Positions 1-19,133 of a stretch of DNA of 64,000 nucleotides are shown here, in pieces (position 1 is the stretch's first letter; the number at the start of each line of letters is the position of its first letter). The translations under genes were made by a program, and so were the position numbers. Where the stretch lies: the NCBI GenBank assembly GCA_964017185.1, contig OZ024870.1, forward strand, positions 26,249,621 to 26,313,620, written 5' to 3'. The DNA comes from Rugalucina vietnamica (Eukaryota > Mollusca > Bivalvia > Lucinida > Lucinidae). Below the pieces are notes generated by a model, which was given only the letters and a program-made list of their open reading frames with translations, searched no databases and was not told the DNA's origin.

Positions 1-3000
1 CAGAACCGCGGAGCCCATTATGGCATGGCAAGCAGCTTCCAGAGTGAGAGCTATTGCCAGCATCTCCAGCATGTTGATGTGGAGACGGGATTGGTCTCTG
101 GTCCAAACACCATGATACAACAGACCCTCCGGTTCCACGTGAGATCCCCAGCCTGCCGTGCTGGCGTCCGTGAAGATCGTGTGAGAGACCGGGGCTACTT
201 TCAGGGGCACACCTTGGATCCGTTCTTGTTTCCACCAACTGAGGTGATATAATACATCCGGAGTGACTGGGATCAGTTGGTCCAATGGATGTATATGAGG
301 TCTCTATAGTGACAACAGGTACGTTTGTAATGGTCTGAGATGGAGTCTGCCCAAAACAACGTGATCTGCTGCCGCATTGAGTTGTCCCAAAAGAGACAGG
401 AAAGTCCTGGCTGATACGAATGTCTCCTGAGAAAAGACCAGAATGGCTTGGAGTATTTTTTGAATTCTGTCCTGAGGAACTCTGACAAGGTTGAGATTGG
501 TCAAGAATTCCATCCCTATGAATGTGAAAGTCTGTGTTGGAACGAGCTCTGACTTCTCGTAGTTGATAATCAAGCCTAGAGAAGTTATCAAAGACATTAG
601 ATAATGTCTGTGTTCCAAGAGAGTTCGACGACATTGGTTTCTGGCTAACCAGTCGTCGAGATAGGGATGCAGAATGATCGCTCTTTTCCTGAGAAATGTA
701 GCAATTACATTCATGAGGTAGGTAAAGACGAAAGGGCTGGTCGAAAGCCCGAATGCTAAAGCCTTGAACTGGAAGATCTGACCGTTCAGAGAGAAGCGAA
801 GGAACTTGTGTGACTGCTTGTGAATCGGGACATGCAGATACGCATCGGTAAGGTCCAATGAAAATGCCCAATCGTTCGGATAAATGGCATTCCTTACTTT
901 CCTTTGAGCTTCCATCCGGAAGTTCTGAACGCAGACGTACTTGTTTAGTGGAGACAGATCGATTATGAGTCGGGACTTTCCGTTCTTTTTCGGAACGATG
1001 AAAATCCGAGAATAAAACCCGGGACTTACCGGGTCGATTTTCTCCACTGCACCCTTCAAAAGGAGATTGGCGACCTCTTCTTCCAGACGAGAGTCCTTCG
1101 ACTGGTTGAAGAAAATTGGGACCTCTGACATGGGAGGGGGTTCTGAGAAAGGAATCAGATACCCTCTCCGGATGATAGAGAGGACCCATGGGTCGTCTGT
1201 AATGCTTTGCCAGTTGTGGACAAAGTGGGCCAATCTTCCTCCTACCGGAACTTGGGGTAGAGGAAGGGGCAGTGGAGAGACATCTTCAGTGTTTCTTAGG
1301 GGCAGAGGCCCCTCCACGAGAGGGGGCACCTCTGCCTCTGTAGCTGGAGCCTCTGAAAGAACTGCCTCTACGGCCACCGCGGCCAGATTGAGGGGGTATT
1401 TTGCTAACCTCAGTAGTCGAGGACTCTGTCTTCTGAGGAGCAGGCTTCTTTTTAGGAGGCTGAGCGCTACGCTTGCCTGAAACATTAGCAGACTGCTGTG
1501 ATTTAGGTTGTTGGGACACAGCGTTGTCAACTAATTTGTCCCTATTAGCTTGAACATTACGCTTATAAATCTCATCAACTTCCCCGCCAAAAAGTTTAGA
1601 GGAAGTGATGGGAACGTTCCTAAGACTTTGTTTGGATTCATCCGTTAAGGACTTAGATGCAGAATGGATGGCCGCGTCACGACGGGCCTGCTGCAGACCA
1701 ACAGCCATAAGAGAGGCAACTCCAATGGAATCTCTAATGGCCACGGATAAAGAGTCCAAAGTCCGCTCCAAAAGCTTGGGATCCAACTCCTTCTGGTGTA
1801 AAGATTTGTAAGCCGCAAAGGACAGGATATCGGCATGAGAAAGCGTACGTAATATATCCCGTGAGTATTTCTCATAAGATTCAAGGGACTTCACTGGGAA
1901 ACTGCAGGAACCCTTGAGCGAGAGATCTAAGCGACTGGCATCCCTGTCAAGCTGAGCAGGTTCTGCTGTCGGGAAAAACTCACAATGAGCTTTGTAAAAT
2001 TTGAGACCGGCCACTGACAAAACATCTTTGTCGCCCGGGCACCAGTTATCGACAGGAGGAGTCTTAGAGAGATTCTTTGCAATGCGCTCAATCGTGGTCT
2101 TGACCACCGATGACTGAGGCAAGGAAATGGATTTCCTTGGAGCTCTCTCTTGATCCATCTGAATACTTGACCTAGGTCGACAATCAGAAGGATCACGCTC
2201 CGGTTCTCTTGGGAACTTGTCTTCTGGCAGAAGTTAGAGAATTTCCTCAACCAAGGATGAAAATTTAATGGCTTCAGAATCCGCTAATTCATCCTTGAGA
2301 GGTTGCCGAGACTGACGAGAAACATCACGCTCGCTTTGAGAGTCAGAGTGATCATTGAAATCGTTCTCATCTGAACGGATTTCAACGCTTAACTCAGGAG
2401 AGTGTCTGTCCCGATGTTGTGACAATTCTCTCCGAGTATGAGAGACTCGCGAGACACGCTATTCCTCAACTGAATGAGCCGAAGAGGATGAGGAAGATCT
2501 AGATGAAGAAGGTGAAGGTGTACGAGGACGTTTCCTTGTATTCTTCTTCTTATAATCTTTACGTCCACTTCTGTGGGACTTATGTCGCAGTTTACTCTTC
2601 TTCTTCTTTCGTCTCTCACGAGAAGAAGATGAAGAGGATAAAGAGGATGAATAAGAGGAGTAGGAAGAGCCACGTTTCCTCTTATGACTAACTTTCTTGA
2701 CATGGTGTCTATCACGACGGGAGAGTCTCCCATGATCCCGAGAGCGGGATTTAGAGCGTGACCTGCACCTATCACGTGAACGTGAGCGAGATCTCTGATG
2801 ACGTCGGGATGATTGATTCGAAACCCGATCATGAGCCGATCTCGAAAAGAAGGCGGTCTCTCACGGCGTTGTCTTAGAGCAGATGCCGGAGAGAGCTCAC
2901 CATGATTAGCATGGCGAAGAGGAATCAAAGGCGTGTGACGCCTATCCTCTGAACTGATATGTCTAGAGTTTTGGTTGTTTGGAAGCCTGGGACCAAACTC

Positions 3001-4150
3001 TACATCAGTAGAATGATCAAAACGATCTTTTGACCTAGGACTATGAACGGCATCCGATATCCGGTGTCCGGTTAGGCCTATGGTCAGAGTCAGACAACAG
3101 TACTAGAGTGTCCTTTTTGTGACCTGGATCTCTAGACAAAGTCTGGTGAACATTGTCCGGTGTCCGGCGTCCGGATGTCCGGTTGTCCGGTGTTCACTTG
3201 TTCAGTAGGAAGTTGAATTCCATGACCAGCGTCCGGTTGTCCGGCGTCCGGATGTCCGGTGATCAGGGCTGAACAGTGTCAGAGGGTCCCTGTCCGGTGT
3301 CCGGTGTCCAGTCCGGTGTCCTCTGAACAGAGCTGATGTGATCCAGGTGTTCTCGGGACCCTACCGGACTCGGTACGAAACCGAGCCTTAGTAGCCGGAA
3401 GGACGTCGACAGTCAAGGGATCCTTCACCAGTTTCCCAGTGTTGTCTCCCCGGGACAAGTCCCGACTGTCTAACTTACCTGCCGAGTGCCGAGAATGGCG
3501 CTCGGTAGGAGACTTTGAGCGCAAGGCATATCGCAATGAAGATGACCTCTTGCTCGAGCGTCCCCTTGAAGGCGACGACTCACCAAACGGCGGGTCGTAT
3601 GCCTCCGTAGCGGAGGAGCCGACCTGAGAGTCCGAAGTCACAAGGACTTGAGACTGGGTTCTCTTGACAAAAGATGACGATTGATTAGACCTCTTAGTCT
3701 TCTTTGACTTCGCCATCTTGTAACGGTAGGATCTTTTCTTCAAAACCAAAGACCAAACCGAAGACGACCAGGAAGAACAGAACTCACAAGGTTTGTCCCT
3801 GGAACATAAAGCACAAGATAAACAGTCAGGATGATTGTCAAAAGCCGCCTTGAGATGACCGCAGTCACCGCGGATCTGCGGCATCCGAAAAAGGCGCGAA
3901 GAGAACCCCGCGAAAAAAACAAAGAAAAAATACGAAATAACAATTATTTCACGATAATAAGTAGTAAATACAAACGCAATTACGATAGTAATTGAAAGAG
4001 TAGCACAGAAATTAAAAGGGAATGAGACAAATCGTAAAAAATTTTCTTCAGAGAAGAAACGATGTAGACTCCATTCCTTTCAATTTAATTCTGACACGAA
4101 AATCTTGTGCACTTCCGGTTTCCGGTGACTATTGACACAGACACCATATA
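1..4150 (-). mobile_element. DIRS-type retroelement, partial and broken
   Basis: Fossil of a DIRS-type (tyrosine-recombinase class) retroelement that runs off the left edge. In element order I see a Cys/His-rich gag-like part (about 3280-3890), an Arg/Ser-rich gag-like stretch (about 2240-2930), a second gag-like part with a Gly/Arg-rich tail (about 1290-2160), reverse transcriptase (about 300-1290, with LDLTDAYLHVPI and the YLDDW box) and RNase H (about 1-300, with TDAS, GWG and HINMLE). The RT and RNase H motifs are typical of DIRS. The recombinase that normally follows would lie left of the window. The copy looks broken in about three places. RT motifs remain well preserved, so it is probably not very old. 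The right boundary is an estimate; no terminal repeat was identified. Confidence 0.85.
3057..3325. repeat. imperfect GTCCGG short-period repeats
   Basis: Many copies of GTCCGG(T/C) with variable spacers, denser from about 3150, lie inside the gag-like part of the DIRS element. It is local low-complexity expansion. Confidence 0.7.
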
Positions 4151-6821: not shown

Positions 6822-7795
6822 TCACCAAATTTCTTTTGCAAAAGCAGACAATTTATCCTGGAGACCGTCCGTTATGCCTTGTCTCAGGTTTTTCAATTCA
6901 CGCAAACTATTCAGTTTTTGCAGTATTAATGTGAAGTATTCTTTTCCTTTCCCATATGAATAGTAAGCTTCCAAGTAATGCTTCAAGAGAATAAGATATC
7001 TATTCTGAATATTAGAAAGATGTCTACGCTGAACCAGATTGTCCCAAAACGGACTGAACACTAAAACTACCGAAAACATTGCCATCACACAAGGGTCTTT
7101 GAATAATGCATTTTGCATACTCATAACCAAATTAATCAGAATCTCGGTGCTGTCTTTGTGCAGCATAAATGCATTTTTAAGATCTTCCAACCTCACCTTA
7201 ATGTCATTCACGATGAAACAGTTTTCTTCTTTATCAAAATTATACGCCAACAGAAGAACCATGCAACACTGAATGCTTCCTTTCAGGCAATTCACTTTTA
7301 CTTCCATATCTAATTGACTAAAATCCTCCACGCTTTTTATGAGATTAATAACCTTTTTTGCATAACCAGATGCAAAAGTATTGTAAAAATCTTGCATTTC
7401 TACCATGGAGCTTGGCACTTCTGCTGCAAACGAAGCTTTTAGTGCTGAATTAAATCTCTTTCCCAAAAGGTCTATGAGTGACTTTTCTTCATCAGTCAAT
7501 GTTCGATTGTTCTTAGGTCTACCAACTTTCATCGAAGACTGCTCTACATGATGATGGTAAAGCTTCCTACTGCTGCCAGCTTCATTTTGTGAACAGTGTG
7601 GCCAACTTTTGGATTGAAACCATGACACTCCTTTATCAGGTTCCCTTATGTTGTCAACAGGAACGTCACTTTTTACTTTGTTCTCATTTCCCACTGTTTC
7701 TATGGAATTTCCCTTAGCTACCAATCCTTGTTGAGCCACTGTCTTGTGTTGTTTCTTTACAGCTTTGTCCCGAGGCCTGATCCTGTGTCCATGCT
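6822..7795 (-). CDS. NR1J: NR1J-like receptor, ligand-binding-domain exon 2 (distal)
   Basis: Terminal coding exon for the hinge and a whole nuclear-receptor ligand-binding domain (323 residues, no internal intron). The 3' splice site is a T-rich tract ending TTGCAG at 7796. The exon enters in phase 1, so the G left over from the DBD exon plus AG gives GAG, and the frame is then open to the stop. LBD signatures include KSVEDF, FKDP, NRYLILLKHYLE and KEYF. The C-terminal LSAFAKEIW fits an AF-2 helix. It is about 40 percent identical by eye to the proximal LBD exon at 10521-11500 over 150 core residues. It lies 2.7 kb 3' of that exon's stop. No separate DBD exon was found between the two, so it is either an alternative last exon or the remnant of a tandem paralogue. 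No clear AATAAA follows the stop. Confidence 0.85.
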
Positions 7796-8266
7796 CTGCA
7801 ACAAAACAATGAGAAATTTCCAGGGAGGGCTACCAGGGTTCAAACTAGACAACAACTTTAGACCCCTCTCCCCCACCCACCCCAAAAATTTGGGAGAAGT
7901 TTCAGGTTTGCCTATATATTCTTTGCATTTTCTCTTCTCCCTCAGCTGAAAATAAGTTTGTTCGCCCTGTAGGCTATTCCTTGGCTACAATCAAAGACTA
8001 TCTGCCAGCACCCAATGGAAAAATAGTGAGTAAATTTCTATAGCATGCAAAGAAAACTCCCACTGGTAGCTGAAAATTTATCATTGATTTGTTTCATTAC
8101 CAGAGCAAGTCTTAATTGTCACAGCACCATTTTCAGTAATTGGGGAAAATGTTTCAAACAACATAACTAGAACTGTAGACATGCTTTTTTTTTTTTTGGT
8201 TTAACAGATTTCACTTTATCACAGTAAAAGCAATCAAATGGCTGTTGACCTACATGTACATGTAAA
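7796..8266. other. intronic or intergenic DNA, nothing recognised
   Basis: Only the pyrimidine tract of the distal LBD acceptor and AT-rich sequence were seen here. Confidence 0.5.
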
Positions 8267-8489
8267 TGAGCCTCAACGCGAGAAAACCAGTCTTCGGGAT
8301 TTTCTACCGGGTGCGACTCAAATCGGCCTGTACAGGCACAGAAGCAGGCTAGAGGCTTGAATTTTGGCTAAAGGTAGATGAGGAATTGTACTATCTGAGT
8401 AGCGAAAACAAAGGCGCTGATCAGCTGTGCAGTTACTGCCTTTGTTTTGAATGTTTTCGCATAATACAGTTTTCTCGTGATGCGGCTCA
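8267..8489. mobile_element. MITE family M2, diverged copy
   Basis: Both ends (TGAGCCTCAACGCGAG and GTGATGCGGCTCA) and the CAAAGGCGCTGATCAGC core are present, but one arm of the core hairpin is shortened. Confidence 0.75.
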
Positions 8490-8911
8490 AATGATTTTGA
8501 AGAAGCAATTAACATTTTATCCATCAAATCTTAAAGGAAGTTTTATGTTTTGACACTTTAATAGTTAAACTGATTAAAATTTTCTGTTTTAATAAAGAAT
8601 CATAGGGATAATCATGCAAGTCTACCTTTGAAAACCATCTAAAATCAGTTGTTTGAAAGTTAAGAAAGTCAAAGTCATACAAAGTCAATCATTTCTACAT
8701 TGCATTACTGACTACAACTTGAAAACAATATACATGTACAAAAGTGCAGCATCACATAAACAGACACGTGGTCAACTACAGTGACTGCAATAGATCTACT
8801 CCTATCTATCACAAGGGCTTCAAGAAACAACAATATCAGTAAAATTTCTACTTTGTATCTTTCAAAGATTTCATCTTTTTCTATCTAATAAACAGGTCAA
8901 CCTCATTTTAA

Positions 8912-9142
8912 TGCACCAGTCATTTGTATCCCCGGCCACCCTAGGGCCGGGGATAGTGTGGACTCAGCGGGGCTAAAGTGCCATGTTTTAATGATGAGTC
9001 CCGGCAGTTGCCGGGGATGTGCTGGGGTTTTAATTTCCCGCCATTAAAACCGGGACTCATCATTAAAACATGGCACTTTAGCCCCGCTGAGTCCACACTA
9101 TCCCCGGCCCTAGGGTGGCCGGGGATACAAATGACTGGTGCA
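8912..9142. mobile_element. MITE family M3, perfect 93-bp hairpin flanked by TTAA
   Basis: Arms 8912-9004 and 9050-9142 are exact reverse complements (93 bp each) around a 45-base loop. Ends read TGCACCAGTCATTTGTA. TTAA is present on both sides (8908-8911 and 9143-9146), which would fit a TTAA target duplication. The flanks also mirror each other (CCTCATTTTAA and TTAAAATGAGG), so part of that match may be extended palindrome. Confidence 0.85.
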
Positions 9143-9299
9143 TTAAAATGAGGTTACATATCAATTGTATTTTTAACATTTCATTACTTTTATGGTCCTT
9201 ATCTAATTTGCAAATGTACCTGTACTTTTACACACAAAAATTCAAGCCCCTCTCTAATATTTCAGTTTCATCAGAGCAACTCCCAGCTGTAGTTCCATA

Positions 9300-9594
9300 T
9301 TATGGTTATCCTCCAGGGAGCCGGAGCTTTCTGCAGGGATTTTACCACAAATCTGGCCCCGCAGTGCCGGGCTTTTAGCCGGGCTTTTAGCCGGGCTTTA
9401 AAAATTAGAAAGTTTAAAGCCCCACTATTCCCCGGCCGTAGGGGAGCCGGGGATACAAATGACTGGTGCATAATGCTATCTTTGATGTCCATGGAAACAG
9501 ACTGTGTTATCAGTGAAACTATGTAATAATGAGGTTATTTAAAATAGCCATACAGCAAAATAATCATTTTGGGAGCAATGACATGGCCATGTTA
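9300..9594. mobile_element. MITE remnants (M3 half-copy plus Tigger-like piece)
   Basis: From about 9300 to 9470 there is a worn M3 copy with a good right end (ACAAATGACTGGTGCA) and three direct GGGCTTTTAGCC repeats near 9369. From about 9473 to 9590 the sequence matches the inverted interior of the Tigger-like MITE at 22467-22658. Confidence 0.65.
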
Positions 9595-9833
9595 TGAGCC
9601 GCCCAGTGGGAAGACCAACAATCTGCCTAGGCGAAAACAAAGGCGCAGATCAGCTTCGCAGTAACTGCGAAGCTGATCGGCGCCTTTGTTTTCGCTTCTC
9701 AGATAGTACAGTTCCTCTTCTACTTAAATTCAAAATTTCAAGATTCTAGCTCTTTTCTGTGACTATACAGGTCGGTTTATGTCAGATCTGGTTGGAAACC
9801 ACATTGTTGGTTTGCTCTTATATTGAAGGCTCC
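9595..9833. mobile_element. MITE family M2 copy
   Basis: Starts TGAGCCGCCCAGTGGG. The core hairpin (GCGAAAACAAAGGCGC and its complement) is almost intact, and the right end is worn. Confidence 0.8.
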
Positions 9834-10184
9834 ACCGTAGTGAGGGGCTTTATAATGAGGCTAAACTGTAACTACAGGTAGTGCTTATGGAACACAAGGC
9901 TCTTTGACAATTGTTGACAAGAAAAACCAACATTCATCGTTTTCAGAAAATATCTAAAACTTTTGATAAAAAATTTTAACCGGCTAAGCCAAAAAACAAA
10001 ATCTCAATGCTTGCTAACTTTACCTTTGAGAGTTTCCCGAACACCTTGCTCACTAATATTTAGAAGAGGTATAATTTGTCAGGAGAAAAATTTCATCTTT
10101 TTTTATGCTATATAATATTCCATTAAAGAATCCTTAATGGCACAAAACAGTTACATGCAAGTTGGGAGGGTTACAGCTATTTTC
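9834..10184. other. no recognised feature
   Basis: AT-rich sequence between two repeats on the 3' side of the proximal LBD exon. It has no convincing reading frame or repeat. Confidence 0.5.
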
Positions 10185-10361
10185 CTAGGGCTTGGTCAAC
10201 AATTTTTAGTCATGTCGAGACATAGTCACCGCATCATGGCTATCAATCAGTACTGTTGGAAGTTAATGTGTCTTGCTCAAGCAGCACCACCAGTTGGGAT
10301 CGAACCAAAGACCACTTGATTCGTAGTCTGATGCTCTACAACCAAGCCATCATTCTCCCCT
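10185..10361 (-). mobile_element. tRNA-derived SINE
   Basis: Read on the minus strand, a tRNA-like head begins near 10361 with an A-box-like TGGCTTGGTTGTAGAGC and a B box GGTTCGATCCC (10296-10306). It is followed by a body with GAGCAAGACACATTAACTTC and ATGACTAAAAATTGTTGACC. Similar bodies occur at 13961 and 52701. Confidence 0.7.
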
Positions 10362-10520
10362 GTCTTCTTGACTGAGACAAGGTTTCATATGGGGAGAGGT
10401 AAATGGTCATTTCCTTTCTTATGTATTGTACAAATTAAATCAGCAAAACCTGAGTATATATTATAACAAATAACTTTTTTTTGTCTCAACTAAGCTTCAC
10501 AAAAGTACACAGTACTTTTG

Positions 10521-11500
10521 TTAGCAGATATTTTCAAAATTATATACTTCTTTTGTAAGAGGATCAACTTTCTGCGGATCTGTATCAACCAGAACCTCAG
10601 TCCAGGCAACTGACAATTCTCTTAACTCCCTAGCTCTCTTTAGAACAGTAGCAAAGTAGTCTTTGCAAGTACTGTAAGAATATTTGCACTCCAGATAGTG
10701 TTTAAGCAAAATCATATATTTGTCCTGAAGGCTGGACATCAGTTCATGTTGCAGAAGCTCAGGCCCATCTGGGCTAAATAAAAGAATTAGATGAAACAAT
10801 GCATGTAGCAATGGATCTTTAAACCAATCAGCCTGCATACTAAAACAAATATTGATAAACATTTCAGCAACATTCTTATGCGAACTGAAAGCTTTCATAA
10901 ACATGTCTACTGGTACATACATCCCTTGAATGAAAAATGATTTTCTGGAGACGTCGAGTCTGTATGCTCCTAACAACGTTAATGCCATCCGTACCGAAGA
11001 CTTTATACTCAGAAGTTGAGCTTCCTTAGATAACAACTTGAAATCTTCCACCGACTTCACGTAAGTCACCAGTTTTTTGGCCCATATCATAGAGGTATTT
11101 AGAAAATCTTTCACTTCATCCAATGATTCTGAAAAACCAGGAACTACCATTTCTGTTGCACTGACATATTTTGTTTCTAAATCATGTAAAAAACTTTTCT
11201 CCTTTTCAGACAGCCGTCTAAACTGGGAGGGACTCTCGCGTGAACTGCACCCTTCTGTACTGTACTCCCAATCCTCAGACGGTGGCCACCCCAGCTCCCG
11301 AGAGTCAGTCCAATTATACAAACTATCACAACTGGCAACAATAACCACGGTATCGGGAGAAGACTGGTCGGCGTCACCAGATGAAACAATATTACATTTG
11401 TCCATCTGGCCCATGTCCGAGGGTTCAGGTTGGCTTCCACATGTCTCAGTCCTACGTTTGCGGCTACCAGGTCGTTTTCTCATTTGCAGTCTTGATGCGT
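10521..11500 (-). CDS. NR1J: NR1J-like receptor, ligand-binding-domain exon 1 (proximal)
   Basis: Terminal coding exon with a basic hinge (RLQMRKRPGSRKRR) and a complete LBD, 325 residues to the stop, in one uninterrupted exon. The 3' splice site is CTTACTTGCAG, cutting at 11501. The first two bases AC join the G at the end of the DBD exon to make GAC in frame. LBD signatures include KSVEDF, WFKDP, the LFSP turn, DKYMILLKHYLECKY and ELREL. The last residues PLTKEVYNF fit the AF-2 activation helix. Joined to the DBD exons this gives a receptor of about 503 residues, a normal size. The family acts as a ligand-regulated transcription factor in the nucleus; NR1J members are xenobiotic or sterol sensors (family knowledge). 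Only a weak AATATA-type signal was seen downstream. Confidence 0.9.
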
Positions 11501-11902
11501 CTGCAAGTAAGAAGTACACTTGATTACAAAAGTGAAGGCGCTTTGTTGATGTTCTTAAGTTTATTCAGAGATGCTCAAAAATCAAAAAGTCCATTCTTAC
11601 TGTGATTAAAGTATCATTTCTTTAAAATTTGATCACTTAATCAAAAAGATAAAAACTATGAGATTTGCATGAGTAGACGTAATGTTTCATTAAGTTCACA
11701 CTTGCAAAGATACATTTTTGTTCCCAGAAAACAAGCAGAGATGATTTCAGCATGTTTTAGCATAGGTTTGTATAAACCGCAAAAGAAACTCAAGTCTAAA
11801 ACAAACTAAATACATTTACAATTTTACACCATGTTTGCAAGCCAAGTAACTTTGAAGTAAAAGATGCATTATTTTTTCAAAAAGTATATCTTGAAAGCCT
11901 CA
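11501..11902. other. intron, nothing recognised
   Basis: Start of the 6.3-kb gap between the proximal LBD exon and the second DBD exon. AT-rich and unstructured. Confidence 0.5.
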
Positions 11903-12188
11903 TGCACCAGTCATTTGTAAGCCATGTCCTCCCACCTATGGGGAAGGGCACCTATGGGGAAGGGCAGAGATTATGACTTTTCAGTTTTCAGTGCCCTGCT
12001 AAAAGCCCCAACCCCAAGGGACAAATATGCTCTTTGCCCTGACCTTTGTAATAGAAAATCTCCCTGCGACATTTTCCCTGCATTGGGGCCCTTAATTTGG
12101 GGGGACAATCAAAAAGTAATTGCCCAGCAATTTAGCCCAGCTATCCCCCACCTTTCCCTGTAGGTGAGGGGGCAGTGGTTACAAATGA
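11903..12188. mobile_element. MITE family M3 copy, right end truncated
   Basis: Starts TGCACCAGTCATTTGTAAGC and contains a repeated CCTATGGGGAAGGGCA. The right end GGTTACAAATGA runs into the next M3 copy. Confidence 0.75.
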
Positions 12189-12503
12189 TGCACCAGTTAT
12201 TTGTAACCACTGATCTCCCCCCCCCCCACACACACACACACCTACGGGGAAGGGTGGAGGATAGCCAAGCTAAAGTGCGGGGCAATTACTTTTCAAGTGT
12301 CCCCGCAGTGCAGGGGAAATGACGGGGTTTTGACATTAGGATCCTTACCCCAGGGAGATATTCTATTGCGAAGCGCGAGCAAAGCTTTGACCACCAGTTT
12401 GCCCCCCTGGGGTGGGGCTCATAGCAGTGCACTGAAAGCTGAAAGTCATAATCCCCGCCATTTGCCGTAGGTGGGGGCACAGTGGTTACAAATGACTGGT
12501 GCA
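12189..12503. mobile_element. MITE family M3 copy, tandem with the previous one
   Basis: Ends TGCACCAGTTATTTGTAACC and GGTTACAAATGACTGGTGCA are inverted. A C-run and CA repeat (12217-12241) lie near the left end. Confidence 0.75.
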
Positions 12504-13960
12504 TGACTGGTGGATAGGAACTCTGAAAACTGTTCTCACTGATTTACAAAATAATTTTTCAAAATTATTTTTCCTATATAGCTGTTTTCTACTTTTTCAT
12601 CTCAATTTCAGCCCTAAGTGTGCCTCAGATTAATAACAATTAAGTTTGACCTTCACTTTATGTAAAAACCTGTACTTCTATACAAGCATGGTGCACAAGA
12701 ACAACAAAACAAGAACAGAGCATTACAACACATTGATCAGTATAGAAATTATCTATTAAGGATATTTTTGTTTGTTTTGATTAAATGCATTATATCCATG
12801 GTCGACAGTTTAGGTCATGTTAGGTAGTCAGTTATCCTTAACCAACAGTTCCTAGGCAAGCCTCCCCGAGGCAGATCACCTTGTAGCATTTCATTCATGA
12901 CTGTCACTGACAAAAAAGATCTTGAATCTGCAGTGGCAGCAGAAATGTTTTCATGACCAAATCTTCATGATACTATTAGATGCTGGTATGGGATGTGAAA
13001 TTTTATGACTGTTTGAGAAAGTGTCTTCATAGGTGTCTTTTCCCTGTTTGGTATTCTTTTAGTATTCACATGACATGTCCGTGTCAGTTGTCAATGTCAT
13101 TATGATTTTCATAAACATGTACAAAGCCGGTAATTATCAATACTAGGACATGAAATGTAGGTCACATTGACAAACACACCATTTATTCAAACTACAATAT
13201 AGCAATTTTATTGAGATTGACTATGAGAGTGACTTCAATAGCTTTTTTTTCCAAAATATGACACAGGTTTACATGTAGTAACTTTAATTCGTATCAAAAT
13301 ATACAAAATGTGGCTATCAGAATCTCCTTGTCAAGTTATAAGACAAAGTGCAAAACTTATCCCACCTTTTATCCATAAAACATAGCTTTGAATGAATTTA
13401 TAAAATCATGTAAATTTTGGCAGAATTTCTTAAACACAATGGTGAAAAGTTGAGCATGTGACTTCAATTTTACACAGAGAGGTTCTATATAAATTTAGCA
13501 TTGATAGGCAAGCTGTGGCTAAGAAGATCAGAATGAAACAATGGACGCTGGATATCGGATGATGTGTATATTACAATCACACCTTATTAGCTTAAGCCCA
13601 GAGACGGTCTTGATGTTTGACTGTGTCTGCCAGTCTCTTCGATCTACTGCTTCAAGGGCTCAGGACGACTGGTGAGCTTTTGCAAATCTGTTTTATTTTA
13701 TGAAAGAGCAACTACCCTTCTTAAACGAGGAAAGGAGGAAATAGTTTCAAGACTAAATCTTCAGAACAAGATAGGTTGGCTGATTCAGTAAGGGTTTGTC
13801 ATCCCATCAGTTTATAATTTCAAGTCTCTAGCTTCTTACAGTGGGCACATAAAGAACAGCTATCAAACAGTCATACCATGTCTCCTTACTACTCGGTAGG
13901 CAGCTATCTCACCTAAAATTTATGGCCGTTAAATACTCAGTTCATCACAGATTTTGTTCG
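12504..13960. other. intron, nothing recognised
   Basis: About 1.45 kb of AT-rich intron. I looked for a further LBD exon on the minus strand (the KHYLE-type helix) and did not find one. Confidence 0.5.
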
Positions 13961-14143
13961 TTTGATTGAGGTTTAACATCCCAGTCAACAATTTTTTAGT
14001 CATGTCGGGACGCAGCCACCATTTCCTGGGTATTTACCAGTACTCTGGGGAGTTAATGTGCCTTGCTCAGACACAAAACGGTGCCGCTCACCGAACTCTT
14101 GATTTAGAGTCAGATGCTCTACAACTACGCTATCACGCTCCCT
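13961..14143 (-). mobile_element. tRNA-derived SINE
   Basis: Minus-strand head with TAGCGTAGTTGTAGAGC and a decayed B box, then a body resembling the SINE at 10185 (GTCCCGACATGACTAAAAAA and GTTGACTGGGATG), ending in TTAAACCTCAATC. Confidence 0.65.
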
Positions 14144-14239
14144 GGTTCATAACGTGCTTCAGCAATTTATGGTAAACAACAGGAAAAAGCTTGGTTGACA
14201 GCACAGGTAGTATCAGTTGGGTGCATATCAAACTATAGA

Positions 14240-14487
14240 CTGGGGTCAGTTGTTCAAACTTTGTTAGCTTAACATCATCGTTAAGACCTCAACTTGTTAA
14301 GTAAAAGCCGACAACATAAGCAAATACACTGTTATTTTATGTTGATAAAATGTGAGAATTCTTTGTAATGCAAAGGATTCTCACATTTTTTCAACAAAAA
14401 AAATAACAGTGTATTTGTAATATTTCCATTTGAAATTTTAACAAATTGTGACCTAACATTATCAATAATTTTGAACAACTGGTCCCT
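14240..14487. mobile_element. foldback MITE in the receptor intron
   Basis: Ends GGGGTCAGTTGTTCAAA and TTTGAACAACTGGTCCC are inverted. Inner arms CAAATACACTGTTATTTT and AAATAACAGTGTATTTG pair again around GAATTCTTTGTAATGCAAAGGATTC. Confidence 0.75.
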
Positions 14488-14610
14488 GATAAGCAATATG
14501 AAGATAGTGTGTGCCTATTGATAAGTCAGCTACAAAACAATCTGATCACCTACTGGTAAACGTTAAACATATAGAATACAGAAAACCAGAGGACCAATGG
14601 TTCTGAGAGC

Positions 14611-15437
14611 GCTCACCTGAGATTTGGTCTTTGAAAATGTTGTTGAATTCTGATTGGGCATGATTTTCATATCTGATTGGGCATGATTTTCATACATGAA
14701 TTCAATAGCATTGAACAGATGACGGATGTCAGAAAATGCCTATACCATAAGCTATACACCTGGAGAAAAAAAAACAGCTACTTAACAGCAAGCAGTGAAA
14801 AATCACAGAATGTGCTGTGCAGTACATGTACCCCAGCTGGAATTGCTATACATAAACTAACAATTATATCATTCTGTGAAAAAGTATACTTTCAAACCAC
14901 ATACATGAGCAATACACTACTACTAGATGGCATTTGGGTGCACAATTTAATTTTCAATCTGCTACATATTACAGATGTAGTGGAAATGCTAATTTATGCA
15001 GCTCACAAAACAGAGAAGATAATCACCTCAGCTGGCCAAGTTGCTAGTTGTCATCTAAAACTTTCCATAATTTGTTTCAAACAGAATGGTCAAACAAAAA
15101 CGAGATAGACAGACAGAAAGACAACCCTAAATGCTCACCTGAAATCTAGTATCTATATACTCTTTCCTACAATGACGTTGTGCATTGCCCTGCAGCAGCC
15201 TAATGCATGCAATGTTTTAGACCTATAGGCTCTCTGGTTCTTGAGAAGGTTTTGATATTTATAACCCTGGCAGATCTGGACAATTTATACAATCTTTCAT
15301 TCTCCATTCCTAAGGATCCTCCGCATAAAGTTTGGCTATGATTGGCCAAGAACATTTGAACATTGTGAACGAGCATGACAACTTCTGAGCATAGGTATAC
15401 TAAAAAGTCATCTTTTGCGCCTAGTCTCAGGTGAGCT
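14611..15437. mobile_element. non-autonomous element with 12-bp inverted ends
   Basis: Perfect 12-bp ends GCTCACCTGAGA and TCTCAGGTGAGC enclose 827 bp. A 143-codon open frame inside has no recognisable domain and is probably incidental. Confidence 0.5.
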
Positions 15438-16026
15438 ACTATATAACTACAGAAACACAAGGAGAATATATAAAGAAGGTTTGTCAGAAACAGTTTGTGG
15501 ACACCCTAGCTACAGAAAAAGTAACACGCTTTTGTAGAACTTGTTTTGTATTAAAAGAAGCAGCAATGTTTTATAAACATGTTTTAGAAATATGGTTCAA
15601 TATGAGATGCTTGATATGACCAGTTTTCCACTATGTAATAGGGCTGCACAGGGCAATAAATATGATGATTTTCAAATTCAATTCTGTTTTTGTTCGGGAA
15701 ACTGTGCTTATATACTTAGGCATGCTACAATGTTCATATCTTTTAAACCTGAAATCATTAACATAGAAAATGTCATTTTCTGACATGTCGAGCATTCACA
15801 GCCCTCTAGTTTTGAATTCTGTTAATAAAAGTTCACAAGCAGTCTGATAAATCTGTTTAAAAAGATCTGACAAAAGATACCAACAGAAAATCATAAAATT
15901 ATGCGCATCATTATTGAAATCACATTCTAACATGATCAAAGTGCTACAAGGAGCAACAGGAAGGCTGTCAGCTAATGTTTCCAAGTGGCATAGACAGATT
16001 TCAAATGCTCACAATTCTGAGCACCT
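15438..16026. other. intron, nothing recognised
   Basis: AT-rich, without inverted repeats or coding signatures that I can support. Confidence 0.45.
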
Positions 16027-16265
16027 GGGCCCGAGGTTATAAAACTTTTTTTCATGCTCAACTCAACTCAGCAAGAAATTTAAACTGCTCATACATGACA
16101 AAATAGCACATATAAATTGAAATTTCAGGTTTAAATCGCCAAATCTTGTAATTTATCCTGCTAATAAATGTTAAAATGCCAAACAATTGTTTAACATTTA
16201 TGAGCAGGATAAATTTTAGTCTCAGCTAAGATGAGCATGAAAAAAGTTTTATAACCTCGGACCCT
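16027..16265. mobile_element. palindromic MITE
   Basis: Arms GAGGTTATAAAACTTTTTT and AAAAAAGTTTTATAACCTC close the element. An inner pair TTTATCCTGCTAATAAATGT and ACATTTATGAGCAGGATAAA folds back again. Confidence 0.8.
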
Positions 16266-17000
16266 GGGATGATAAAAGAGCAGAATGACATCAATACAAA
16301 TGCTAACCACGAGGACTTTGTTTTACATGTTGACATGTTCAACAGGTGGTCAGACAATTTGCCGAGCTTTGGTACTGATCTGCATTTGACAGGCCTTGTG
16401 TAGATATCCAAGAATCTTAAGTGGAAAAGCTCTTAAAGCATCAGATTAACTTGAAATAATGTGTTAATGGCATAAAAACGTCAAGTAATGTCAAGTGACA
16501 TTGACCCTGCTAGAGTAGCAGGGGCCCTGCGCCCAGTCAGGATGCTGTAGAAGATCAAGTTTTGTTCGGACATTCATAAAATTTCATATATTTGCACATG
16601 AAATATTTTGAGCGAAAGCCCATTAAATTTTTCTTGCATTTCCTTTCTTGCTGAAAATGTTAAAGGTGTCCATGAACTTTTCTGACAAACCTCCCGCAGC
16701 TGATTTATCTTTTATTATTGCATAAATATTTGTGTCACACGATATCAACAGGCGTATATTAATGAAGACAAGAGCCGTATATTAATCAGGCAATTCTTGT
16801 GCACACGCACTGTTAATACATAGCTTTTATTCATGCTCTGTAACGGGCATTATGTAAAAAACATGCTATCAATGAGAACGGAAGTAGGCTAAAAACAGAC
16901 ATAAGAATGAAAGCTTTTATTTGTATGAAAATGTGATGAAGCTTTGAAATATAGAGTGCCATTATTTCTTTTGTTTTTGCAAAATTTATGCAATAATAGC
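16266..17000. other. intron, nothing recognised
   Basis: No repeat or exon was found here. Confidence 0.45.
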
Positions 17001-17143
17001 GATCAAACATGATTTTGTCATTCATTAACAATCGCTAGGTCCCTCGGGTGTTGTTGAAAACCTTGGGCTGTGCTGCGCCCTCAGTTTTCAACCCTTCCCT
17101 CAGGACCAAGCGAATGTTAATGAATAGAAAAACATGTTTGATC
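17001..17143. mobile_element. palindromic MITE, 143 bp
   Basis: Ends GATCAAACATG and CATGTTTGATC, inner arms TTCATTAACAATCGC and GCGAATGTTAATGAA, and a centre with GTTGAAAACC and GGGCTGTGCTGCGCCC. Confidence 0.75.
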
Positions 17144-17804
17144 CTGATAGTATTTTACATAAGGCCAAATCAAATGTGTGATGTCCAGGATTAAAGCTCA
17201 GAAATATTAGGGAATGTTGGGATTTTATTTTTTCTTTTAATAAGCCAATTAACATCTAGCCAAACCGTTTTGGGGACATTAAACCCAATTCATTTATCTT
17301 TTTGTTATGGCCTTATCCCTTTACAATAATTATCTTAAAGCTGCCTATACAAAATAAATGCAAGCCAAATCAATTCTAAATCTTGTCCAAACATTTTTTT
17401 TTTCAAATTCAGTATAGGGCTGAACCACACATTTTTTTTTTATTTGGCCTAAGCATACAGCAGAATTTCTCTTGGCAAGGCATAATCAAGGGATAATTTT
17501 AATCATAGTTTTTAAAAGGGCATAAAGGTGAATTATGTGATACTAATGAGCACTCATTGCAGTTTCCATGGAAAACCATAAATGCAACTAAAATCCTGTT
17601 CTTAGACTTTTAATGAGCCTGATGACCCTTGACTAAATCTGATGATTGTTATTACTTTGAGTATGCTGTTGATATGCACAAGTTAAAAAAACCTTTTGTA
17701 TGGGTATCACACTTTTTATACAGGTAGGAGAAATCATAAAATTATCCCTAAATTAGCATCAAACACATCGTCCTGTTATAAAACAGTAACAGTTTTACAC
17801 CTAC
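17144..17804. other. intron, nothing recognised
   Basis: AT-rich intron just 3' of the second DBD exon. It starts with the GTAGGTG donor. Confidence 0.45.
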
Positions 17805-17922
17805 CTAGGATCATTTCTTTCTTCATGCCCATACTGAAGCATTTTTTCAGTCGACAATGTGGACAGAACCGACGTGTTCTAACGTCCACAATACAATTTC
17901 CTTGGAACATACAGTTAGGTGT
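17805..17922 (-). CDS. NR1J: NR1J-like receptor, exon for second zinc finger
   Basis: A 118-nt exon between TTTTTCAG and GTAGGTG. It encodes 39 residues plus one base: the second zinc finger with the canonical C-x5-C-x9-C-x2-C spacing (CMFQGNC then RFCPHC), the RRFC and RLKKCF core, and the GMKKEMIL extension typical of the NR1 T/A box. Entry is phase 0 from the first finger exon; exit is phase 1. That phase fits the first bases of both LBD exons, at 11500 and 7795. The six residues between RRNAL and the first Cys match the usual linker length, which confirms the splice. Confidence 0.93.
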
Positions 17923-18010
17923 CTGAAAAACAAAAGCATCATACATGCTCAATGCAGAAAATATAACTTAACTTCTCCAATGGGAATGTATCTGAGTAAG
18001 ATTGGTTTGT

Positions 18011-18229
18011 CATCACGTGCATACATGTGATACATCTGGGAAGCCAAATAGGGAGATTTGCCTTTCCAAATAGGGAGAATGATTAAACAAAACAGGAAAT
18101 TCTTGATTTTTGGTAGGGAGATCTGAAATTCCAAATAGGGAGATGTATAAAATATATAGGGAAATTCTGAAATTCTAAATAGGGAGATTTGCTCCAAAAT
18201 AGGGAGATATCACATGTATGATCACGTGA
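18011..18229. mobile_element. palindromic MITE with AAATAGGGAGA repeats
   Basis: Ends ATCACGTGCATACATGTGA and TCACATGTATGATCACGTG are inverted. The interior carries about seven imperfect (A)AATAGGGAGA repeats. It lies in the intron between the two DBD exons. Confidence 0.7.
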
Positions 18230-18719
18230 GGGCCTCCATTTGTATATATGTATATGCTAAATGCATTTACCCTCTTTAAATAAAGTCTTTACTGACTGAC
18301 TGACTGACTTACTTATCACGCAATAGGAAACATACCTTTACACTCAATATAGGGAAGATAAGCAGGCTTCAACTAAATGTAGGTCCATCTTGTAATGCAG
18401 GGTTTGTTGGTTCCATGTTTGTGTATTTGTGATTAAAACAATGTACCGTATATTAAAGCGATTTAAAATAAAACTTTCCTTGCCTCAGGCAAAATACTTT
18501 CGCACACTTTTCCTTGTCGAATTTAAATTTAAGCTATATGCAGTATTATGCTCATCCTTCCACAAAAATATAAACTGTTCACAACAACATGTCTAGGCAA
18601 AGTACTAGCAGTTATCAATTGCTTGAAGCATTATCCATTATCGATTTGTTGACACCAGACACCATTACCACTGACCCACCCCCTTATTACCCTTTGAGCT
18701 GATGTAAAATTGTACAAAC

Positions 18720-19133
18720 CTGTTGTTTGAGTGCATTTCTTCTGAAGAATGCTTTACATGATTCACAAGTCATTGCGTTGAAGTTATATCCCAGTGCCTT
18801 ATCACCACACACTCGACACACTTTCTTGTCCTTGCCATGTATCTTACGCTTTGTATGAAATACACCCGCATCTCCAGAATGGTCTCCTTCTAAAGAAGAG
18901 TCCATAGACTGGTTCCCTGTTAATGAGCTGGTGCCACCGGAAATGTCCTGGAATGAAATGCCGGCGGCGACCTGGTCGGCGCTCATGTCCGAGAATGAGG
19001 TACTCGTGGTTACACTGTCATTATTTGGCTCTAATCCTGTGGCACTTGTATCCCCTGGTGCTTCCGAGCTTTTATTACTGGCGTCCTCCAGCATAGAGCT
19101 GCTTGTAGAAATATTACTGTTGCTGTCATCCAT
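18720..19133 (-). CDS. NR1J: NR1J-like receptor, first coding exon
   Basis: Start codon at 19133 (M-D-D-S-N), 138 codons, donor CAG/GTTTGT after 18720 in phase 0. The first ~100 residues are a Ser/Thr/Asp-rich A/B region. Next comes the first zinc finger: CRVCGDKALGYNFNAMTC, then the P-box CESCKA in ESCKAFFRRNALK. ESCKA rather than EGCKG at the P-box is the hallmark of the NR1J group (HR96, DAF-12, NHR-8). The gene reads toward lower coordinates: this exon, then 17805-17922, then either LBD exon. The predicted product is a nuclear receptor of about 500 residues that probably pairs with RXR, by family analogy. Confidence is high for the family. The orthologue name within NR1J is not certain. 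Confidence 0.93.

Follow-up and report, generated by a model that had tools for sequence, protein, structure and literature searches.

By the usual count, a nuclear receptor gene encodes one DNA-binding domain (DBD) plus one ligand-binding domain (LBD), and new ligand specificities are credited to duplication of whole genes. Bivalves have several NR1J receptors each: the oyster set comprises NR1J alpha, beta and delta, with the P-box ESCKAFFR, together with CgNHR40, which consists of a DBD alone and groups with NR1J alpha, and an array of LBD exons goes unmentioned in the excerpted text (PMC4070562). Mussel NR1J1 comprises four paralogs (alpha, beta, gamma and delta), each with its own primers, and the excerpted text is likewise silent on one DBD serving several LBDs (PMC11204112). 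The locus considered here, in the lucinid Rugalucina vietnamica, has a single DBD followed by seven complete LBD exons. Its 5′ part lies in the window, a 64,000-nucleotide stretch equivalent to C2:26249621-26313620 of a 1.09-Gb assembly (C2 being contig OZ024870.1, and window base 1 being C2:26249621). With a probability of about 0.72 it is, in our view, one NR1J gene in which two DBD exons precede seven arrayed LBD exons that serve as alternative last exons. No description of a nuclear receptor gene with several alternative LBDs was recognised in the literature covered, namely open-licence PMC papers, with long result lists taken in part.

One DNA-binding domain and seven ligand-binding-domain exons

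Exon 1 (window 18720..19133, minus strand, 414 nt) carries the start codon, the N-terminal region, the first zinc finger and the P-box ESCKAFFR, and ends in phase 0 at a GT donor; exon 2 (17805..17922, minus strand, 118 nt), which holds the second zinc finger, ends with GMKKEMIL and the first base (G) of the following codon, also at a GT donor, so that the two together stop one base into a codon. Downstream, LBD1 (10521..11500, minus strand, 980 nt, stop TAA) and LBD2 (6822..7795, minus strand, 974 nt, stop TGA) each begin at an AG acceptor, supply the two missing codon bases and stay open through a hinge and a complete LBD to the stop; joined to the DBD exons they give 503 and 501 residues, respectively. 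Chance as the explanation of the open LBD2 frame is ruled out, 0/2000 shuffles having stayed open. The positions, splice sites and phase of all four exons are as the sequence-only reading had them, and the window does lack a second DBD, as it had stated. Its estimate of about 40% identity between LBD1 and LBD2 was too high (31% over 333 columns), and its two LBD exons, both real and intact, proved to be merely the first two of seven.

Five additional intact LBD exons, found by tblastn of the surrounding stretches, lie 3′ of LBD2, outside the window and on the same strand: LBD3 (C2:26237198-26236156), LBD4 (C2:26214891-26213810), LBD5 (C2:26210759-26209774), LBD6 (C2:26199929-26198944) and LBD7 (C2:26191993-26191023). 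Exon length ranges from 971 to 1082 nt across the seven, each being 2 mod 3 with an unbroken frame up to its stop; measured from the donor of exon 2, the nearest acceptor is 6.3 kb and the farthest 75.4 kb away, and the putative gene spans 77.7 kb. Beyond LBD7, tblastn gave no LBD from C2:26191022 down to 26129621. The count refers to the stretches around the window, as distinct from the rest of the genome; C2:26129621-26323620 was read gap-free, with C2:26323621-26324999 and 26365000-26371999 left out. The anatomy is that of an alternative-last-exon array, in which a single donor faces several last exons, all complete and of the same phase, with no intervening 5′ coding exon.

As regards domain content, zf-C4 (Pfam) matches residues 105-173 with E 1.9e-22, a two-finger C4 DBD as in the nuclear receptor superfamily, and a PF00105 second-finger match at C2:26267438-26267539 is exon 2. 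The Pfam Hormone_recep scan took in LBD1-LBD5 and LBD7, that is, all but LBD6; LBD2 (E 1.3e-5) is above the curated cut-off, LBD1 (E 0.01) is below it, LBD3 with 22.3 bits is just under the cut-off of 23.5, and LBD4, LBD5 and LBD7 score 31.7, 30.8 and 49.2 bits. LBD1 and LBD2 match solved nuclear receptor LBDs by sequence and also, in modelling, by predicted fold, so that an LBD of nuclear-receptor fold with AF-2 again places the products in the superfamily.

A second DBD between the LBD exons is ruled out by the window itself, by tblastn of 194 kb without N, where nothing besides exons 1 and 2 appeared at E <1, and by a genome-wide PF00105 search, whose 75 matches include just exons 1 and 2 between LBD7 and exon 1. 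With one DBD, the array is not of the type with two tandem DBDs (2DBD). The interval from exon 1 to LBD7 contains 14 further frames of at least 130 codons; among the 13 scanned by Pfam (three as parts, the fourteenth, antisense to LBD1, being left out), one is a reverse transcriptase, one is integrase-like below cut-offs, and the others have no family.

Splice signals, hinges and function of the ligand-binding domains

By a simple pyrimidine-tract score, the LBD2 acceptor ranks 6 and the LBD1 acceptor 45 among 670 AGs scored. On the same score all seven acceptors are in the top 0.5 to 7% of the 4369 AGs on that strand from exon 2 to LBD7, and their mean was matched by 0/20000 random sets of seven AGs. 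Of the AGs from -150 to +90 nt around each exon start, the one that scores best is the DBD-compatible acceptor in 7/7 cases. All seven exons open with Asp or Glu and then a net-basic stretch (+2 to +6 over 25 residues) that is DBD-extension-like, and the common phase is retained although identity within the group LBD1 to LBD5 is down to 26 to 44%.

These features bear on a different explanation, namely that the extra LBD exons are DBD-less NR0-like genes, with their own promoters and short or non-coding first exons, whose products act as co-regulators or dimerisation partners. An oyster receptor with an LBD and without a DBD is reported in PMC4070562, and an in-frame Met occurs among the first 10 codons of five of the seven exons (LBD1, 3, 5, 6 and 7). 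However, all seven have a strong acceptor, in one common phase, and begin with a basic stretch, features that would be needless for an LBD-only protein, and the first Met is at residue 89 in LBD2 and residue 160 in LBD4. Because of its late Met, the LBD2 exon is probably entered by translation from upstream; the LBD2 hinge preceding that Met is, moreover, conserved relative to two database proteins, P0002 (0/2000 shuffles) and P0003 (13/2000). We consider the NR0-like explanation unlikely. Hinge similarity between LBD1 and LBD2 is no higher than in shuffles (334/2000). In the four LBD1 homologs that reach past the exon start (P0009, P0010, P0011 and P0014), Ala-Asp stands at the junction, as expected for a common acceptor and phase.

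The charge clamp formed by a helix-3 Lys and an AF-2 Glu acts in coactivator recruitment. Since both residues are kept in 7/7 LBDs, all seven could recruit coactivators. At 19 positions that we take to line the VDR pocket (alignment-mapped, and least sure at 233-237), LBD1 and LBD2 have 4 identical residues, and the LBDs likely bind different ligands. Between LBD5 and LBD6, dN is 0.128 and dS 0.321, a dN/dS of ~0.4, which, together with the conservation of LBD1 and LBD2 described below, led us to reject a reading of the LBD exons as pseudogenes.

Two hinge features are recorded separately. Near C2:26214781-26214500 the LBD4 hinge has a VESKSN-type repeat that differs from that of a relative (P0006) on a separate contig, possibly through allelic repeat variation. 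A Cys- and Lys/Arg-rich stretch, CKVCSKKSGMF ... GC, is conserved in the hinges of LBD5 and LBD6, after C2:26210759 and 26199929, and is absent, by eye, from the other five LBD exons.

Relatives in other genomes and in mussel

At E <=1e-3 there are 6 database proteins for LBD2, including the window's own, and 8 for LBD1, one of them 99% identical. One contig of 2,051,006 bases carries homologs of both (LBD2 65%, LBD1 79%), as does another of 786,768 bases (LBD2 58%, LBD1 72%), co-location in both genomes being read from exactly equal contig sizes of the homolog entries. Among the 120 of 296 exon 1 matches listed, there is one homolog for the 2,051,006-base contig (P0016, 82%) and none for the 786,768-base contig; named relatives of exon 1 among them are molluscs, Dreissena polymorpha, Plakobranchus ocellatus and Lottia gigantea. 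The sequence-only reading had suggested looking for its exon order in related genomes; LBD1 and LBD2 orthologs are on one contig in two genomes and, in one, exon 1 as well among the matches listed. P0006 (94% to LBD4) and P0007 (99% to LBD1) are both on a separate 627,953-base contig, so the linkage of LBD1 and LBD4 rests on more than one assembly; as a 94% relative of LBD4, P0006 is ruled out as an outlying receptor.

The P-box in exon 1 is ESCKAFFR, described as unique to the NR1J group (PMC4070562, PMC4388693), and the membership proposed from it is supported, NR1J1 delta being the best mussel counterpart. The mussel comparison was with short primer ends rather than deposited or full-length NR1J sequences (PMC11204112): the delta forward primer (MRKEMIL + G) matches exon 2 (MKKEMIL + G) at 18/22 nt, and the delta reverse primer (EILNLS-stop) matches LBD7 (EILNLK-stop) at 14/23 nt, the other six exons giving 6 to 12. 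Since gill cDNA of Mytilus galloprovincialis yielded the delta product on amplification (PMC11204112), a DBD end like that of exon 2 would, if the fit is right, be joined in mussel to an LBD7-like end. Because the delta primers fit exon 2 and LBD7 best, a single former intron may contain LBD1 to LBD6.

A tree of 20 LBDs was rooted on a neighbouring NR1J-like gene, and the program flags long branches, so that its deep order is unsure. LBD7 is the first branch (98/95), LBD5 and LBD6 (77% identical) are sisters which LBD4 joins at 85/83, P0002 to P0005 fall in one clade with LBD2 and LBD3, and LBD1 is in a separate clade with P0008 to P0014.

The mussel data also lend themselves to a narrower view, that the DBD is joined to just one or two LBDs (LBD1 and LBD7), the remainder being rarely used, decaying or trans-spliced. 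Outside support exists for one pairing only, exon 2 plus an LBD7-like end, and LBD1, the nearest to the DBD, has the most conserved homologs elsewhere. Against this, seven exons are open with intact acceptors, the LBD2 protein is conserved in other genomes, and the dN/dS of LBD5 and LBD6 is hardly that of decaying exons, making this view quite improbable. That the array instead represents seven former whole receptor genes, with DBD exons deleted or missing from the assembly, is scarcely credible: tandem duplication clearly expanded it, yet 194 kb without N hold no DBD trace besides exons 1 and 2, relatives of LBD1 and LBD4 are on another contig, and a related genome has LBD1 and LBD2 on one contig with one exon 1 among the matches listed.

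Proposed gene model

We therefore return to the single NR1J gene with alternative last exons. The exon 2 donor would be spliced to one of seven acceptors, possibly in a regulated manner, one gene yielding up to seven receptors with a common DBD, differing ligand pockets and a stop codon each. LBD7, the farthest exon, was probably the ancestral partner of the DBD, and exon duplication within the intron preceding it would have given rise to LBD1 to LBD6. By analogy with mussel NR1J1, the receptors might function in sensing xenobiotics or dietary compounds. It seems to us fairly probable that the whole is a ligand sensor exchanged by splicing, with which a filter feeder re-aims one detoxification or hormone programme, and that the array grew in one intron, with LBD5 and LBD6 the newest members. 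The interpretation given in the sequence-only reading, with just 2/7 LBD exons visible to it, is thus supported in part: alternative last-exon choice, as it had proposed, is the best fit to the anatomy, the conservation and the lack of another DBD.

Several observations count against this model. Among the 6 LBD2 and 8 LBD1 matches there is no full-length receptor joining this DBD to an LBD, though these matches look like exon-level frames. Neither AATAAA nor ATTAAA was found within 1 kb past LBD1 or LBD3. The common phase of the LBD exons is partly inherited via duplication, the early in-frame Met codons make LBD-only products possible for LBD1, 3, 5, 6 and 7, and conservation of the LBD2 hinge was undetectable relative to P0004 and P0005 (703/2000 and 144/2000 shuffles). 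The primer match covers few bases, and on exon 2 the gamma forward primer does nearly as well (16/22 nt). Finally, mussel NR1J1 is described as four paralogs, and shared DBDs are not mentioned in the excerpted text (PMC11204112).

Neighbouring genes and repeats

A second NR1J-like gene (C2:26378238-26359251), the one used as root, is on the same strand and starts ~93 kb upstream of exon 1. It has its own DBD (exons at C2:26378086 and 26361139) and one LBD exon (match C2:26360102-26359311), and the stretches read contain no further LBD exon of this gene; its DBD end, at C2:26.36 Mb, is matched by the mussel NR1J1 beta forward primer (MRKEYIL) (PMC11204112). In a third NR1J-like gene, C2:66019081-66032569, the last residues, EVFNLQK-stop, are those of the NR1J1 alpha reverse primer.

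Within the array, a stretch downstream of LBD3 (C2:26234866-26234711) is a 79% match to the C-terminal 52 residues of LBD3; as it matches just these, it was not counted as an eighth LBD exon, and it is probably a broken exon copy. Between LBD2 and LBD3 there is a retroelement on the same strand (window 304-4079, extending to C2:26247711), presumably DIRS-like, in which one frame encodes a reverse transcriptase and another matches integrases weakly. Between LBD1 and LBD2, at window 8899-9155, lies an inverted repeat whose 106-nt arms match perfectly across a spacer of 45 nt; related pieces are close by, and it is perhaps a recent insertion of the miniature inverted-repeat transposable element type. 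An Rfam scan of the window gave 0 matches.

Significance and comparison with known systems

The array has a bearing on how bivalves sense toxins, a field in which Gal4 fusions of NR1J1 LBDs are already in use as assays (PMC11204112). If the model is true, multiplication of LBD exons uncouples ligand range from DNA targets, so that a chemical sensor diversifies without rewiring of its target genes, and receptor counts based on DBDs overlook many LBDs.

In Drosophila lola and mod(mdg4), shared 5′ exons are joined to a last exon drawn from a large alternative set, every member of which encodes a full domain; there a BTB domain is constant and the DNA-binding part variable, whereas in the present array DNA binding is the fixed element and ligand binding the variable one. 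The vertebrate UGT1A cluster, also a single gene in which an array of substrate-binding exons shares a constant partner in the handling of foreign chemicals, has variable first exons with their own promoters and encodes an enzyme, in contrast to the variable last exons and receptor here. THRA, with its alpha1 and alpha2 forms, has a single DBD and alters ligand binding through alternative 3′ ends, but what changes is the end of one LBD, with no second complete LBD, while the array here consists of complete LBDs. Intragenic duplication of ligand-binding exons is found in vertebrate TGFBR2, ACVR1 and BMPR2, some splice variants having one copy, though these are of another receptor class and both copies are mostly in one protein (PMC13187141). 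The 2DBD nuclear receptors share a non-standard domain number, with two DBDs and one LBD per protein, the reverse of the array here (PMC6844482; PMC4070562). Nearest are the mussel receptors with which this account began, bivalve NR1J receptors whose delta primers fit exon 2 and LBD7 (PMC11204112).

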